Program-made: the position numbers and the translations under genes
DNA from: Bacteroidia bacterium
GTDB taxonomy: Bacteria > Bacteroidota > Bacteroidia > NS11-12g > UBA955
Length of the DNA: 32,281 nt
Reading direction: 5' to 3'
Assembly (NCBI GenBank): GCA_023268875.1
Contig: JALRKL010000020.1
Span: forward strand, 1 to 32,281
The notes under the pieces: generated by a model
What the model was told of the DNA's origin: nothing
The model's input: only the letters and a program-made list of their open reading frames with translations
The model's database searches: none
Part shown: piece after piece, positions 5,834 to 27,774 of the stretch
How positions within the stretch are numbered: the stretch's first letter is position 1
How the letters are laid out: the number at the start of each line of letters is the position of its first letter

Positions 5834-5869
5834 AGGCCTATCAAAAACACATCACATATTCTGAAATTT

Positions 5870-7534
5870 TTGGTATGTCTGATGAACTTTATGTTCATTA
5901 TTCAACCCATAGCAGCTCAAAAGGTGCGGGTTTTGGATTATGATATAGATTCCAACAATACCTTCCATGACAAAAGATTTGAATCAGTATTTAAGGCCAT
6001 ATTATTAATTCATCAGGCTTCTACGGATACGTCGAGAATACAAAAATTGGCCGTTATTGATTTAAATGTATTTGAGACTTATTTGTTAAATAAAATATTA
6101 AAAGATTCTACAAATACAGTATCCGATTTTGAAAACGTTCTATTCGACGAGGAATCTACTCTTAAGGATTATTTTACTTGTATCCGTAGAGCCGTAAACA
6201 ACTATTCCCATGATCGTCGTGAAAATCTGGCAAGATTGAGTTTTTCATCGATTGATCCTGCAATGGATATTCAGTCACTAGCCGAATTTAAAATTAAGGT
6301 TTTATTTCTTTGGGATGATGTTTTTAGATCGGTCCCTTGGAATAAGGCACCCATTTCGTTGAAAGCAATTCGTTCGTTCGTTCGATATCATAAACAATCG
6401 CATCTCAAGAAAGGCGATGACTCCGAAGAGCCATCCCAATCATTTAAAGCTTCTTTCAATGTTCGAGCAACTACCGAATATTGTTTGGATTCTATTGAGA
6501 TTTTTGATTCTCTGAGCCTTCAAATGAACATTGAAAAAAATTGGCAGTTTGTTCGCGATTTTATTAAGTTGTCGAATTCGAGTTACAAGGAATATCGAGA
6601 TATCGCGAATCATTACAGGAGAGTTCGAAAAGCCGCTCCAAATTGGTTGACTCAATCGAAAAATGGGGAGCTATGGCTTGTTGAAAATAACCCTAACGCA
6701 CCTAATCGACCTATTCGTGAATATACGTGTGCCCAGATTTTGGCATTTGAAAATCCAAATTTGGCTTTTCAAACGCATTTTTTTACGGAAAGTAAAAATC
6801 GAGCCAATACAACCGACACCGTATGGCATAGATTGAAACTGTATGATGAATTATTGAAAATTTGGCCCTTAGCTGAATACGATTTTGTTAACCCAGAATC
6901 GGTAATAAACGAAGACGAAGAAGTTTATTCAAATGATGAAGAGCCAGTGAGGTTTTTACTTGGAGGGATAGTAAATGCGGCTTTGAATCAAAGCAATGTT
7001 TTTAATGAGAATTTTGAAAAATTAGGCTTGGAACAAACCAATTTGGGTAATGCTTTGGGATTAGAATTAGGCATAGAAGGATTGGGTGACGGCTTCTTGA
7101 TGAATTTCCAATGGTCTGGCCAGAACCATTGGCTGAATTGGGATTCGCGAGCGCATTATGCCTATACTAACTTCCGGTTTTCGAGTAATATTCCTTTTGT
7201 CAATACCCGGTGGTTAAGTTCGTATTTAGGTTTTGACTACCAATATGAAAAATATCGAATAGCCTTACCCGTGAATCCACAATTTATAGGTAATCCGCAG
7301 GAAGTCGCCAAAGTAATTTCCAATGACGGACAAAATATGGGAATATTCACTCAAATGATTTTTAGAATTAATCACTTGTATGCGAAGGCGCAATTGGGTT
7401 ATCGGTGGGATTTTTCAGATGATAGATGGTATTCTAATGGAATCTCAATAAACAGTATGGATCGGTTTAGAAGTTCTGGTTTGCATTATGGTTTGGGTTT
7501 TGGTTTTTTAATTTTTGGGGGAAATGAAAACTAA
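5870..7534 (+). CDS. exported protein with C-terminal beta-barrel-like region; degenerate paralogue of the downstream gene
   Basis: short signal-like N terminus (FMFIIQPIAAQ); C-terminal alternating aromatic/polar strands; manual alignment to the next ORF. Exact start uncertain (non-ATG 5870 or ATG 5882). Confidence 0.7.
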   Translation: MVCLMNFMFIIQPIAAQKVRVLDYDIDSNNTFHDKRFESVFKAILLIHQASTDTSRIQKLAVIDLNVFETYLLNKILKDSTNTVSDFENVLFDEESTLKDYFTCIRRAVNNYSHDRRENLARLSFSSIDPAMDIQSLAEFKIKVLFLWDDVFRSVPWNKAPISLKAIRSFVRYHKQSHLKKGDDSEEPSQSFKASFNVRATTEYCLDSIEIFDSLSLQMNIEKNWQFVRDFIKLSNSSYKEYRDIANHYRRVRKAAPNWLTQSKNGELWLVENNPNAPNRPIREYTCAQILAFENPNLAFQTHFFTESKNRANTTDTVWHRLKLYDELLKIWPLAEYDFVNPESVINEDEEVYSNDEEPVRFLLGGIVNAALNQSNVFNENFEKLGLEQTNLGNALGLELGIEGLGDGFLMNFQWSGQNHWLNWDSRAHYAYTNFRFSSNIPFVNTRWLSSYLGFDYQYEKYRIALPVNPQFIGNPQEVAKVISNDGQNMGIFTQMIFRINHLYAKAQLGYRWDFSDDRWYSNGISINSMDRFRSSGLHYGLGFGFLIFGGNEN

Positions 7535-9431
7535 ATTATTGCTTTTAGTTATTATTAGTTTTCTCTTCAGAACGTTAGGAGCACAATCCCTTCCTAAAGC
7601 GCAAATCTTCAAAATGAATTTAGATTCTAATGCTGTGATGGACGCCACTTGGAAAAATCTTGCAGAGCAAGCGAAAAAGGTTCGCGTTTTTATGGCAGGA
7701 GAAAATCATAATGAGGTAGATTTCAATGCACTAATGGAGTTTGGATTGATGAACCGCCTTCATGCCTATGCCGGATATCGCCATTATGTGATAGAATTAA
7801 GCCCGGCTCGAGCCCATTATCTCAATCGGTATATTCTTTATTCCGACACACATGCTCGGGATGCTTTAAAGGGGGTTTCATCACTTAAATACATGAACTT
7901 ATTTGAAAATCTTCACAAATGGAATCAACGCCTTGAGCCTGAAGAACGTATTATGGTTCACGGGGTAGATGTGGAGCGATTTTTTGATCTTTCGTTTGAA
8001 AGATTGGCTGAGCCATTGCGAAATTCGATTGAACGGAATACTTGTCCAGATAGTATTTTGGTCGATGTATTGGCTATTGTCTCATATGCGAATCGTCGAT
8101 TTGAAGATCGATTAAATCATTACAAAAAGAAGTTGCGTTCAGAAGGTATAGAGACCGATGATGAAGAAACGGGACCAATGCATCTGTTTTATCGCTTTGA
8201 CTATGCCGAATACATCCAACGAATTGAAAAACAAATACATCTTTATCGAGATTGGTTAAATGAGAATGATTTTAAGGAGTTTTCTCTCGCATTAGAGGGG
8301 GTAAAAGAATGCCAAAAATGGGGTGATGATTCAGAGAGTGCTTCGCGCTTTCATTGGCGAGAAACAGTGATGTTTCAAAGATATCTAAGGGCCTTGAACG
8401 AAAACCCTAAAGGTAGATTTTTTGGGCAGTTTGGCCGGTGTCATATTTCCGAAACCCCATCGGATGTTGATTGTGGTTGGTATGCCTATGAGAGCGTGGT
8501 TAACCGACTAATTGAATATTACTTCAAAAGCAAAGATTCGGTGATCACCATGGGGTATTTTTACCCAGAGAAAAGTCCAAGTGTAACGGCACAGAATATC
8601 GACAAAATGGATAAACTCAATAATGAAATTCAGAATTTATTGAGGGCGTACCACAGCGGTATGGTACTATATGATTTGGAAGGCTCCGATTCGGATTTGC
8701 GAGAATTACGAAAAAAATACCGCTATATATTAGTAAATAATGCAAAAAATAAAGCTTTAACATCCGAATTACCAACCGAGGATATCGGTTCAGATATAAG
8801 TAAATCATCGTATCAATGGGAGTTGAGTTTGCCCTATTTCGGATTCGGATATTGGAATTTGGACAATCAGGGAATGATCGATCATTTTACCGCCAACGGG
8901 GTGAGTTATGAAAATCAGCCCCAATTGTCGATACAGCACCAACTCAATGTTAATTACGGTCCGGTTTTTTTAGGGATTTCAGGATATTACAGTCTCTTTA
9001 ACGATAGGGAAACGGATTTCGCCAACTATACGGATAGCACGGGGTCGGTATATTCAAGAATGTGGGGTGTAGATGTAATGGCGGGGCTACACTATCAGCG
9101 AGGTCCTTGGGTGATAGAGCTAGGCGGGCGTTTAGGAACTGCTCGATTGCAATATCAATATAAAGAATTACTTAACTCGGCTATTTCTGTTAGACCTGTT
9201 AATGGCATGCAAATTCATAATCAATCTTGGAATGTGGGATTGAACTTGAATATGTTTTATCGAATGTCTAGAGAGGCGGGATTTGGAATTCAAGCAAATT
9301 CCTACAGCAATATCGGGAACGGAAGTTGGGTTTATTCGGGTTCGAACCAGCTATATCAAAACCTACCTTTAAATAGCGGCTTAGAAGCCTGGAGCATCAC
9401 GGCTCAAATCTGTTTGTTTTTTTCGCCATAA
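7524..9431 (+). CDS. erythromycin-esterase/ChaN-like domain fused to a C-terminal beta-barrel-like region, exported
   Basis: signal peptide MKTKLLLLVIISFLFRTLGAQ from ATG 7524; RVFMAGENHNEVDF motif; later GQFGRCHISETP; C-terminal beta-rich region ending ITAQICLFFSP. Overlaps the previous ORF by 11 bp. Confidence 0.75.
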   Translation: MKTKLLLLVIISFLFRTLGAQSLPKAQIFKMNLDSNAVMDATWKNLAEQAKKVRVFMAGENHNEVDFNALMEFGLMNRLHAYAGYRHYVIELSPARAHYLNRYILYSDTHARDALKGVSSLKYMNLFENLHKWNQRLEPEERIMVHGVDVERFFDLSFERLAEPLRNSIERNTCPDSILVDVLAIVSYANRRFEDRLNHYKKKLRSEGIETDDEETGPMHLFYRFDYAEYIQRIEKQIHLYRDWLNENDFKEFSLALEGVKECQKWGDDSESASRFHWRETVMFQRYLRALNENPKGRFFGQFGRCHISETPSDVDCGWYAYESVVNRLIEYYFKSKDSVITMGYFYPEKSPSVTAQNIDKMDKLNNEIQNLLRAYHSGMVLYDLEGSDSDLRELRKKYRYILVNNAKNKALTSELPTEDIGSDISKSSYQWELSLPYFGFGYWNLDNQGMIDHFTANGVSYENQPQLSIQHQLNVNYGPVFLGISGYYSLFNDRETDFANYTDSTGSVYSRMWGVDVMAGLHYQRGPWVIELGGRLGTARLQYQYKELLNSAISVRPVNGMQIHNQSWNVGLNLNMFYRMSREAGFGIQANSYSNIGNGSWVYSGSNQLYQNLPLNSGLEAWSITAQICLFFSP

Positions 9432-13344: not shown

Positions 13345-15278
<1,934 letters not shown>

Positions 15279-23727: not shown

Positions 23728-23779
23728 CGTTTATTTCGGCTATTTGGTGCAATACCTTTTTAATAAGAGTAGAAGCCGT

Positions 23780-23787
23780 TATTTTTG
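23780..23787 (+). promoter_or_regulatory. Bacteroidota -7 element TATTTTTG
   Basis: TAnnTTTG match, 4 nt before ATG at 23792. Confidence 0.6.
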
Positions 23788-23791
23788 TAAG

Positions 23792-25663
23792 ATGCCGAAT
23801 TTTAATCACAAATTTTGGAGTCTCGGTTTGATTCTAACCGCGTTCTCAACCACTTTATATGCCCAAAAGGTTCGTCCTGTTAAGGATTATCCAATTCAAG
23901 AACGATTGAATTCCTACAAGAAAGTTCGACTCACAACTGATACAAATAAACTGTCGGAAGCGGAGAAAAAATGTTTGTTCCATTTAATAAAGGCCGCAGA
24001 ACAGGCAGATCTAATCTTTTGGCAACAGGCGTACATGGAAAAAGACCAAGCGCTAAAAAAGGTTAAAGATTCGGTGTTGAAGGCCTTTATTGAAATTAAT
24101 TACGGTCCTTGGGATCGTTTAAACAACAACAAAGCTTTCGTAGATGGAGTGGGAGAAAAGCCCAAAGGAGCTAATTTTTATCCAGAAGGGTTTGACGGGA
24201 AAAACATAGGCGAGGGCGAAGCAACTCGTATTTTAAATCCCTACACCGTTGTAACAAGGGTTTTTGAGATTTCTGAGGGAAATCCCCCACCGATGCCCGA
24301 CAATCAAAATCCCAATTCTGGCCAAATGCCTAAAATGGTAGAAATGTTTCCATTGAACAGCGAATCGGGTTCTAATACGTTTGTGGAAATTGAAAATTAC
24401 GCGCAATACTATCAATCGAATTTGATGGAATTACAAAAACAAATGGATAATGCGGCTAACGCCATCGAATTAGAAGATCCAAAACTTGCAGAATATTTGC
24501 GTATGCGTGGTCAATCCTTGCTTGGAGATCAACTCATTGAAAGTGATATTGCATGGTTGCAGCTCGATGCCCATTTAGACATAATCATAGGCCCTATTGA
24601 GAACTATGAGGATAAATTAACGGGTCAGAAAACGGCATATGAAGCCTATGTTTTAGTGAGAGACAAGGAATGGGGAGAAAAATTAAAGCAATACCTTGTT
24701 TGGTTGCCTAAGCTACAAGCCGAACTTCCTGTAGATAAAGAGTACAAGCCGAGTTTAGGACCAACTGAACCTGAAACCGATGAAGAAGGCAATATTATAG
24801 AAGAGCCCGATATGCCTTTGGATATTCCTGGCTTTCCTCCATTGATTAAACCCAAAGAACCCCAGAGCCAATTGGCCGTTTTTGATGCTGTTTATTACGC
24901 CGGTGATTGCAATGCGGGTAGCAAAACAATAGCGGTGAATTTACCCAATGATGAAGTGATTCAACAGTATTGGGGAACTAGACGTTCGCAATTGAAGAAC
25001 ACAATGAAAGCCAAGTTTGATGAGATTGTGATTCCAATTTCCAAAGAAATTATCCATAAGTCACAACGAAAGAATATTCATTTTGATGCATTTTTCAATA
25101 ATGTAATGTTCCACGAAGTAGCCCATGGTTTAGGGGTGAAAAATTTGGTGCAAGACCCTTCAAAAACGGTTAGAGAAGCTTTAGGCCCTGATTATTCCGC
25201 GATCGAAGAGTGCAAAGCCGACGTACTGGGTTTATATATGGTAACATCCTTACAAGAGGCTGGGGTGTTAAAAGGAGATATTGAAGATTTTTATATCACC
25301 TTCGTGGCGTCTGTTTACCGTTCGGTTCGATTCGGAGCATCAAGCGCACACGGTCGTGCTAATATGATTACTTTTAATACGTTAATGAATAGTGGTTGTT
25401 TGGAGCGCACGAATAAAGGATTGCTTGTGAAAGTTCCGGAAATGAAAAAAGCCATTAGCGCTTTAGCCGGTGAGTTATTGAAATTACAGGGGGATGGAGA
25501 TGTTGCAGGGGTTTCAAAAATGTTAACCGAAAGAGGAGGTATTGATGCGCAATTACAAGAAGAGTTAAATGCCATTCAAAAAAATAACATTCCGGTTGAT
25601 ATTGTCTTTGATCAAGGTACATCGGTACTAGGATTGGATCGATTTGGAAAAAGTAAGAAATAA
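23792..25663 (+). CDS. M49 (dipeptidyl-peptidase III)-like exported zinc metallopeptidase
   Basis: MFHEVAHGLGVKNL zinc motif and second motif EECKADVLGLY; start at ATG 23792 (MPNFNHKFWSLGLILTAFSTTLYAQ signal peptide) rather than 23744. Confidence 0.8.
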   Translation: MPNFNHKFWSLGLILTAFSTTLYAQKVRPVKDYPIQERLNSYKKVRLTTDTNKLSEAEKKCLFHLIKAAEQADLIFWQQAYMEKDQALKKVKDSVLKAFIEINYGPWDRLNNNKAFVDGVGEKPKGANFYPEGFDGKNIGEGEATRILNPYTVVTRVFEISEGNPPPMPDNQNPNSGQMPKMVEMFPLNSESGSNTFVEIENYAQYYQSNLMELQKQMDNAANAIELEDPKLAEYLRMRGQSLLGDQLIESDIAWLQLDAHLDIIIGPIENYEDKLTGQKTAYEAYVLVRDKEWGEKLKQYLVWLPKLQAELPVDKEYKPSLGPTEPETDEEGNIIEEPDMPLDIPGFPPLIKPKEPQSQLAVFDAVYYAGDCNAGSKTIAVNLPNDEVIQQYWGTRRSQLKNTMKAKFDEIVIPISKEIIHKSQRKNIHFDAFFNNVMFHEVAHGLGVKNLVQDPSKTVREALGPDYSAIEECKADVLGLYMVTSLQEAGVLKGDIEDFYITFVASVYRSVRFGASSAHGRANMITFNTLMNSGCLERTNKGLLVKVPEMKKAISALAGELLKLQGDGDVAGVSKMLTERGGIDAQLQEELNAIQKNNIPVDIVFDQGTSVLGLDRFGKSKK

Positions 25664-25680
25664 CATAGTAAGGGTATAAA

Positions 25681-27774
25681 ATGATGAAAAGATGGATTTC
25701 GCTTACGGGCTTGAGCTTGGCAATACTCGCTCTGGTTTTTTGCAGTAATAAACCGTTCTCCGGCGATGAGCCTTTGTTGAAACGCTTAATGATAACCTTA
25801 AACGGGCAGCACTATGCCCCGAAAACCATCAATGATGATTTCTCCATATTGGCTTTTGAAAATACCCTTGAAAATCTGGATGGTAACAAACAGTTTTTTA
25901 CCCAAAAGGATATAGATCGTTTGAAGCCCTTTGAAAAGCAAATCGATGATCAAATTAACGCAGGAAGGTTTGATTTTTTTGATTCGGCTTGGAATACCCT
26001 CATGCTCCGATTAGACCAGATTGAGCCATGGATTCTTGATCCATTGAATGATCCTATGGATTACTCAACTGGAGGTGTTTTTGAGGTTTCTCAAGAGAAT
26101 AAAACCTATTTATTAGATGAAGCTGCTTTGAAAGATTATTGGACTCGTTGGACTCGCTACCAAGTGGTTGACCGTTTATACAGAAAGCAGAAACAACAGA
26201 AGGACCTTGAAAAGGGTAAGGATAGTTCTGGTGCTGTTAAAATCATTCCTTACGACACTCTGGAGTTGAAAGCACGAAACGAAACAAAAACATTTGTAGA
26301 AAATTGGTTCAAGCGTTGGAGAAAGATGGATAGGCAGGATAAAATTGCATTCTATGCAAATACCATCGCCGAAATCTACGATCCCCACACAAATTATTTT
26401 CCGCCTGCGGATAAAGAGAATTTCGACATTTCAATGACGGGTAAACTAGAGGGTATCGGTGCTACTCTTAGTGAACGCGATGGGTACGTAAAAGTCGAAC
26501 GCATTGTGCCAGGCAGTGCAAGTTACAAACAGGGCGAACTCAAAGCAGGAGATTTGATTTTAAAAGTAGCACAAGGGGAAGATGAGCCCGTTGACATTGT
26601 AGATATGAAGTTGGATGATGCCATTCAATTGATAAGAGGTAAAAAGGGAACCGAAGTGCGATTAACAGTTAAAAAGCCCGACGGCGTTATTAAGGTTATC
26701 CCTATAGTTCGGGAAGTAGTAGTAATTGAGGAGACCTATGCGCGCAGTGCTATTTTTACACACAAGAAAAAGCGTTTTGGAATTATTCAATTGCCAAGTT
26801 TCTATGCCGATTTTTCTTCAAGAGGTCGAGGCCGTAATAGCGCGGGCGACGTTCGGTTAGAAATTGAAAAACTGAAAGAAGAAAACGTAGACGGTATTGT
26901 TTTAGATCTGAGAAATAACGGAGGTGGAAGTTTGGCAGATGCCATTGAAATGAGTGGTTTGTTTATTGCTTCTGGTCCTATTGTTCAGGTTAAAGATTCA
27001 GAGGGAAACATTAATGCGGCGAATGATTTTAACCCAACTACTCTTTACAGTGGGCCTTTGGTTGTATTAACCAATGCGTACAGCGCATCTGCTTCCGAAA
27101 TTTTAGCTGCGGCTTTACAAGATTACAAGAGGGCCATTATTTTGGGATCGAAAAGTACTTTTGGCAAGGGAACCGTTCAGACGATGGTGGCATTGAATGG
27201 GGGTCGCTCCGAGGTATTCCCTAGGGGTTTCGGTGAACTAAAAGTAACCATTCAAAAGTTTTATCGAATTAACGGTGGTACCACCCAACTTAAAGGAGTG
27301 GAACCGGATGTGGTTGTTCCAGATATTTATGATGGAGTCGAGCGAGGAGAAAAAGAGATGGACTACCATCTTGCTTACGACGAAATCCCTTCGGCTAAAT
27401 ACAAATCGTATGAAACCAAAGCGTATCGTGAGGCAATCAAATCGGGACAAAAATGGATAAAGTCGCATAAATATTTTGATTTAGTGGAAGAGCGTTCACA
27501 GCAGATTGAAAAAATCAGAAAGGGCATGACCTATAATTTGAACTTAGAAGCATATGCTGCTCAACAAGAGTCTCTAGAGAAAAACGATGAGAAGTTCCGA
27601 AAGTATGAGTACAAAAGAGCATTTGATACAATCTTTGCGCTAAAACGCGATTTGCAAGAAGTTCAAAACGATAGTATCAAAATTATCCAAAGATCAAATT
27701 GGCCAAAGCCTTATTTGAAAGACGCTACATTAGATGCGGCTTTGGAAATTTTGGAGTGTTGGTCAGAAAAATAA
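25681..27774 (+). CDS. prc: carboxy-terminal processing (tail-specific) protease, S41A Prc-like with PDZ domain
   Basis: N-terminal tail-specific-protease region, PDZ (GIGATLSERDGYVKVERIVPGSASYKQGELKAGD), catalytic NAYSASASEILAAALQDYKRAIILGSKSTFGKGTVQ. Confidence 0.93.
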   Translation: MMKRWISLTGLSLAILALVFCSNKPFSGDEPLLKRLMITLNGQHYAPKTINDDFSILAFENTLENLDGNKQFFTQKDIDRLKPFEKQIDDQINAGRFDFFDSAWNTLMLRLDQIEPWILDPLNDPMDYSTGGVFEVSQENKTYLLDEAALKDYWTRWTRYQVVDRLYRKQKQQKDLEKGKDSSGAVKIIPYDTLELKARNETKTFVENWFKRWRKMDRQDKIAFYANTIAEIYDPHTNYFPPADKENFDISMTGKLEGIGATLSERDGYVKVERIVPGSASYKQGELKAGDLILKVAQGEDEPVDIVDMKLDDAIQLIRGKKGTEVRLTVKKPDGVIKVIPIVREVVVIEETYARSAIFTHKKKRFGIIQLPSFYADFSSRGRGRNSAGDVRLEIEKLKEENVDGIVLDLRNNGGGSLADAIEMSGLFIASGPIVQVKDSEGNINAANDFNPTTLYSGPLVVLTNAYSASASEILAAALQDYKRAIILGSKSTFGKGTVQTMVALNGGRSEVFPRGFGELKVTIQKFYRINGGTTQLKGVEPDVVVPDIYDGVERGEKEMDYHLAYDEIPSAKYKSYETKAYREAIKSGQKWIKSHKYFDLVEERSQQIEKIRKGMTYNLNLEAYAAQQESLEKNDEKFRKYEYKRAFDTIFALKRDLQEVQNDSIKIIQRSNWPKPYLKDATLDAALEILECWSEK

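Follow-up and report, generated by a model that had tools for sequence, protein, structure and literature searches.

The window, a stretch of 32,281 nucleotides from a Bacteroidia draft genome (2.1 Mb, 97% complete), contains two overlapping genes. We read them, with moderate confidence, as an outer-membrane-anchored hydrolase of the erythromycin-esterase (Ere) superfamily, DN, and a duplicated, degenerate copy of it, UP, which would act as its non-catalytic partner. The pair is real and not an artefact, and it relates both to known Ere hydrolases and to enzyme/pseudoenzyme pairs.

An overlapping gene pair in a housekeeping neighbourhood

UP and DN are neighbouring open reading frames (ORFs) on the forward strand: UP at 5870-7534 (554 codons) and DN at 7515-9431 (638 codons, with its ATG at 7524). 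A first-pass annotation of the letters had reported an overlap of 11 bp, which is correct (7524-7534). The features of the locus are listed below; both signal peptides were assigned by eye from the sequence.

5870..7534, forward strand: UP, degenerate paralogue (pseudo-enzyme plus barrel); ORF, profile homology to DN, adjoins DN in about 41 of 71 family genomes
5882..5917, forward strand: short hydrophobic, signal-peptide-like start of UP, MNFMFIIQPIAA; from sequence, longer if TTG or CTG is used, as are the signal peptides of homologues
5960..6682, forward strand: UP enzyme-like domain, active site lost; AlphaFold elements H31-48 to E263-267, hhalign of the N-half 98.4%, catalytic columns unconserved
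6947..7519, forward strand: predicted UP C-terminal 8-stranded outer-membrane barrel; eight strands in the model, Foldseek OmpA 1bxw (6.9e-6), Ail, OmpX
7524..7534, forward strand: overlap of UP end and DN start, 11 bp; from sequence, 4 bp in most relatives
7524..9431, forward strand: DN, predicted Ere-superfamily hydrolase fused to an outer-membrane barrel; sequence, profiles, AlphaFold, Foldseek
7524..7586, forward strand: DN signal peptide, MKTKLLLLVIISFLFRTLGAQ; from sequence, helix 2-17 in the model
7599..8747, forward strand: DN enzyme domain (P0002 residues about 29-411); Foldseek 2rad, 2qgm, 3b55 and EreC 6xcq at E 1e-10 to 1e-9, profile against the PDB 8.5e-10
7698..7709, forward strand: GENH, with E63 and H65 (EreC E47, H50); invariant in 50 enzymes, roles in EreC from PMC7979712
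7794..7796, forward strand: E94 (EreC E78); invariant, aligned to the EreC Glu
8358..8360, forward strand: R282 (proposed EreC R261); invariant, 28 residues before H310, like R261 before H289
8427..8444, forward strand: QFGRCH, with H310 (proposed EreC H289); invariant
8817..9422, forward strand: predicted DN C-terminal 8-stranded barrel; AlphaFold model, Foldseek OmpA 9fzd (3.5e-7) and others

For UP, the start candidates are ATG at 5882, which leaves a very short signal sequence, and TTG at 5870 and CTG at 5861, which would give a more typical one. Between 5834 and 5882 there is no good ATG ahead of the signal peptide, and translation may actually begin at CTG 5861 (CTG AAA TTT TTG...) or TTG 5870. 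A UP homologue at another locus (L031) shows an apparent non-ATG start codon followed by two lysines.

The surrounding genes (yicC, pssA, purE, DUF3109 and ubiA) are housekeeping genes and give no functional clue to the pair. The rest of the window is likewise ordinary, with a chaperonin Cpn60 gene and a small gene at 13345-15278 and an M49-like peptidase adjoining a tail-specific S41 protease at 23744-27774. Records related to the window come from uncultured Flavobacteriales/Bacteroidetes metagenome-assembled genomes.

DN resembles erythromycin esterases in fold and active site

Neither UP nor DN of the window matches a model in Pfam or NCBIfam, and at its curated cut-off the Pfam family Erythro_esteras (PF05139) finds neither DN nor any other protein of the genome. 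Since DN has no match above the cut-off, we call it a relative, and not a member, of the PF05139 family. Its own relatives carry the signal: PF05139 is matched by 33 of 50 at E ≤ 0.1 (best 4.9e-11), NCBIfam EreB by 20 and ChaN (PF04187; best 3e-5) by two. Searched against the PDB, the DN family profile retrieves BcR135 (2rad, 8.5e-10) and EreC (6xcq, 5.5e-4). The AlphaFold model of DN (mean pLDDT 87.8) matches 2rad (9.6e-11), 2qgm, 3b55 and EreC 6xcq (9.7e-10) in Foldseek over about 430-440 columns, and its last 200 residues match OmpA, OmpW and NspA barrels. The family matches and the EreC hit support the EreA/ChaN-like identity first proposed for DN, on the side closer to Ere.

The catalytic residues of EreC are E47, H50, E78, R261 and H289 (PMC7979712). 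In DN, E63, H65, E94, R282 and H310 are invariant across 50 homologous enzymes. Two of them, E63 and E94, align directly to EreC E47 and E78 in the profile comparison with the PDB, and H65 lies one residue nearer to the Glu than in Ere (GExH versus GExxH). Judging from their invariance and the identical 28-residue spacing, R282 and H310 probably correspond to R261 and H289. We take DN to be, most likely, a hydrolase that is tethered to the outer membrane and faces the periplasm. Candidate substrates are esters on antibiotics, glycans or lipids.

Profile comparisons reveal homology between UP and DN

Direct BLASTP of UP against DN returns nothing (best E 1.9). The relationship is therefore invisible in pairwise comparison, and this result and the Pfam and NCBIfam negatives would, by themselves, have suggested two unrelated proteins. 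Profile-profile comparison of the whole proteins gives 100%/4e-38 when three intermediate sequences (L049, L048 and L047) are included and 99.7%/6.5e-27 when they are left out. An HMM-HMM comparison had been proposed as a check at first pass; with no intermediate sequence included, the N-terminal halves prove similar in hhalign (98.4%/6.6e-15). Control profiles from the same loci (YicC, PssA and PurE) give 0.1-0.4% and reversed N-halves 0.1%. The barrels score 98.7%/1.5e-16 and a reversed-barrel control reaches 39%, so that barrel similarity by itself is weaker evidence of homology. With the window's four-member UP clade only, hhalign returned the barrel match and a weak N-half (45%), and the wider UP family was therefore required.

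The gap between the two proteins is spanned by seven upstream copies that have diverged less: L049, L048/L100, L047/L101 and four further intermediates from the genome collection (L097, L102, L103 and L136). The copies at L049, L048 and L047, which belong to other genera, match the DN enzyme domain (E 4e-37, 3e-22 and 3e-12) and also the UP barrel, and the profile of the window UP family matches the intermediates at 97.6%/2.9e-12. An alignment made by eye at first pass agrees with these profile alignments where it sets QKLAVIDLNVFETYLLNKIL against RHYVIELSPARAHYLNRYIL; the stretch QKVRV, just past the UP signal peptide, is not the counterpart of KKVRVFMAGENHN.

The AlphaFold model of UP is weak overall (pLDDT 68.8), with unreliable stretches at residues 1-27 and 270-351 and values mostly of 72-91 up to residue ~230. 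Read by eye, its helices and strands between residues 31 and 267 run parallel to DN 65-304 with the first strand and the GENH loop left out. Foldseek with the UP model alone retrieves barrels and no Ere structure, so an Ere-type fold for UP rests on the profiles and the order of elements. The structural check suggested earlier therefore came out as expected for the 8-stranded C-terminal barrel of both models and the Ere fold of DN, but not for the retrieval of an Ere structure with UP.

A single in-place duplication in an uncultured family

In a maximum-likelihood tree of the enzyme domain (seven alignable UPs, root placed at the midpoint), the UP clade (support 99/98) and the DN clade (89/86) are sister groups, and single-copy enzymes fall outside both. 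The window UP is too diverged to be placed, and its membership therefore rests on profiles and synteny. One relative (L051) has a single copy in the order yicC-DN-pssA, and in the window's genus the pair lies between yicC and pssA. Together with the tree, this position makes one in-place tandem duplication the simplest account.

According to counts made by hand from genome tables, the pair is present in about 41 of 71 genomes of the family, including all 15 of the window's genus, and some other genomes of the family have the enzyme only. A cultured relative, Crocinitomix algicola (L144), carries one copy. Among the 71, UP without DN was not found, allowing for contig breaks. No UP turned up in the sister family, where the hits were cross-hits to its single enzymes. 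The enzyme has no match in 118 sampled other genomes of the phylum and is thus lineage-restricted; a plasmid search gave no match for DN. The tandem paralogy proposed at first pass is borne out by profiles, intermediates, tree and synteny, and the gene pair is conserved in relatives as the survey suggested there indicates.

Loss of the catalytic set in UP

Every one of the 37 enzymes examined has the motifs GE[N/D/S]H and GRCH, together with the E of iEl and the R of WRE/FRE; none of the 32 UPs inspected has a complete catalytic set. The motifs GENH and GRCH are indeed present in DN and absent from UP, as first noted. The least diverged UP (L049) reads GENF and retains the counterparts of E94, R282 and H310; others read GVPEES and RCE (L048), GINRS and RCF (L047) or GVNH (L136). 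Outside such basal copies the counterparts of E94, R282 and H310 are lost, and the window UP has none of the catalytic set in the alignment. It has a His near the GENH position (His33, in TFHD), with a similar one in about ten UPs of the same genus. Across the UP family, the enzyme-like domain has no new conserved constellation of His, Glu or Cys, and the only strongly conserved acidic residue in UP is D334, in the linker. Conserved parts of the UP surface include the helix FxVxxTxxxFLDS at residues 192-204.

Three upstream copies (L095:712-2832, L099:4737-6869 and L136:4992-6821) have a His at or near the GENH position and lack the Glu (WFPQVHPY, GVNHYY), a hint that the order in which catalytic residues disappeared differed between copies.

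Barrel topology and conservation of the two halves

Both C-termini form eight strands that close a barrel in the AlphaFold models and match OmpA/OmpX in Foldseek, in line with the outer-membrane beta-barrels expected at first pass. In each predicted barrel, strands 2, 4 and 6 lead into short turns and strands 1, 3, 5 and 7 into long loops. Short turns mark the periplasmic side of such barrels, and this pattern therefore predicts that the N-terminal domains of UP and DN lie in the periplasm. A natural fusion (described below) sets the DN domain behind the end of the UP barrel, which agrees with this placement. Of the two locations originally offered, surface or periplasm, loop lengths and fusion thus favour a periplasm-facing arrangement and speak against the cell surface.

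Mean identity across genome pairs is 0.18 for the UP N-terminal half, 0.23 for the UP barrel, 0.37 for the DN N-terminal half and 0.20 for the DN barrel; the single-copy enzymes have 0.31 and 0.21. The enzyme-like half of UP thus drifts faster than its barrel, and DN shows the reverse: the catalytic half of UP has lost constraint, and its barrel is about as conserved as that of DN. In basal pairs (L100, L049, L097 and L102) the enzyme-like half of UP is still better conserved than the barrel. UP barrels share the loop motif GYxWDxSDxRW.

Stand-alone ORFs of about 230 residues in the same genome family (G020:C17:33041-33499 and similar) match the enzyme profile in its C-terminal barrel portion, and their products may be related to whatever protein supplied the barrel.

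Maintenance and linkage of the pair

UP evolves under purifying selection, with dN/dS of about 0.06-0.30 compared with about 0.08-0.12 for DN in close genome pairs; values at larger distances were left out, as synonymous sites are saturated there. UP ORFs are intact and full-length at nearly all pair-bearing loci. Identity to the two nearest relatives is 44% and 32% for UP and 61% and 54% for DN. The two genes overlap, most commonly by 4 bp, or lie almost end to end, and close overlaps persist in diverged genera. In one genome (G029; locus L057, continued by L058), known from one metagenome assembly, the UP barrel is joined to the DN enzyme domain by a linker of ~100 residues, and an internal signal peptide is not evident. 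The fusion is one open frame split over two overlapping contigs (L057:5287-8580 and L058:5528-7036); UP and DN are separate in a genus-mate (L055).

Combined with profiles, intermediates, tree, synteny and predicted structure, these signs of selection support the original proposal of a duplicated barrel-anchored enzyme plus pseudo-enzyme.

Proposed mechanism and alternative readings

We propose that DN, once exported through its signal peptide, is anchored beneath the outer membrane by the 8-stranded OmpA-like barrel at its own C-terminus. There, H65 (held by E63), E94 and H310 would probably activate water for the hydrolysis, in the periplasm, of an ester or a comparable bond. UP would have arisen from DN when the gene was duplicated once, in tandem and in place, in a common ancestor of several genera within this uncultured family; it would have retained the signal peptide, the barrel and the helical framework while losing the catalytic residues. 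Because its active site was lost and the gene has been maintained ever since, UP is probably a helper subunit of DN, most likely forming or regulating a hetero-oligomer with it. The heteromeric system suggested at first pass has indirect support from the co-occurrence of the genes, their overlap and the one fusion. In a more specific and tentative version, the two would constitute an obligate hetero-oligomeric outer-membrane machine, in which UP, through its barrel and helical domain, serves the periplasm-facing active site of DN by recruiting, gating or activating the substrate.

Alternatively, UP could be a neofunctionalised barrel protein independent of DN, with a linkage that reflects only tandem origin and shared transcription. 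Its barrel, with the common loop motif, is now its better conserved half, and the enzyme-like domain is down to about 18% mean identity. Against this, UP never occurs without DN, whereas DN-type enzymes occur alone, and both the L057 fusion and the persistence of close, often 4-bp, overlaps across diverged genera argue for association; we consider independence rather unlikely.

DN might itself be non-catalytic, a ChaN-like binding protein for haem or another ligand on the Ere/ChaN fold. This is improbable given a full Ere catalytic set invariant in 50 sequences and 33 Erythro_esteras and 20 EreB matches among 50 relatives, set against a GExH one residue shorter than the GExxH of Ere and the two ChaN matches.

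That UP remains an enzyme through a rebuilt active site, for instance one around a His near the old GENH position, is very unlikely. His33 and its equivalents in about ten same-genus UPs, the GVNH of basal L136 and the L049 copy, which retains E, E, R and H and lacks the first His, fit such a site; however, the UPs as a family have no conserved His, Glu or Cys in the enzyme-like domain, D334 lies in the linker, and the E94, R282 and H310 counterparts are gone outside the basal copies. A slowly decaying pseudogene, which the very fast divergence of UP might suggest, was rejected as barely conceivable, since it is contradicted by dN/dS well below 1, by intact full-length ORFs at nearly all pair loci and by the retained signal peptide and barrel.

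Relation to known systems

DN shares with the erythromycin esterases EreA/B/C/D (PF05139; EreC 6XCQ/6XCS) the fold, counterparts of the catalytic set and remote profile matches, but it is exported, barrel-fused and chromosomal and has GExH, not GExxH. Its best sequence and structure matches are BcR135/'succinoglycan biosynthesis protein' of Bacillus cereus (2RAD, 3B55, 2QGM), which, unlike DN, have no barrel. The C-terminal halves of UP and DN match 8-stranded barrels of the OmpA/OmpX/Ail type, whereas here the barrel sits C-terminal to a pseudo-enzyme or enzyme domain.

In enzyme/pseudoenzyme pairs that arise by gene duplication, a homologous partner loses catalysis and its gene is maintained beside the active copy. 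UP and DN resemble such pairs: they are homologous, UP lacks the catalytic set, and it is kept by selection next to DN. No recognised system with this architecture was named at first pass, and a limited search of open-access text likewise found no published pair of the UP/DN type, no pseudoenzyme pair with an Ere-superfamily hydrolase and none with two barrel-anchored partners.

With DN, the erythromycin-esterase superfamily gains a branch anchored in the outer membrane. The locus offers, across many genomes, a rare graded series that starts at a lone active enzyme and passes through half-degenerate paralogues to fully degenerate ones, so that the order in which catalytic residues are lost beside an active sister can be read directly. 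If the putative UP-DN interaction is real, the pair would be a two-barrel hydrolase complex whose division of labour evolved after a self-sufficient enzyme was duplicated.
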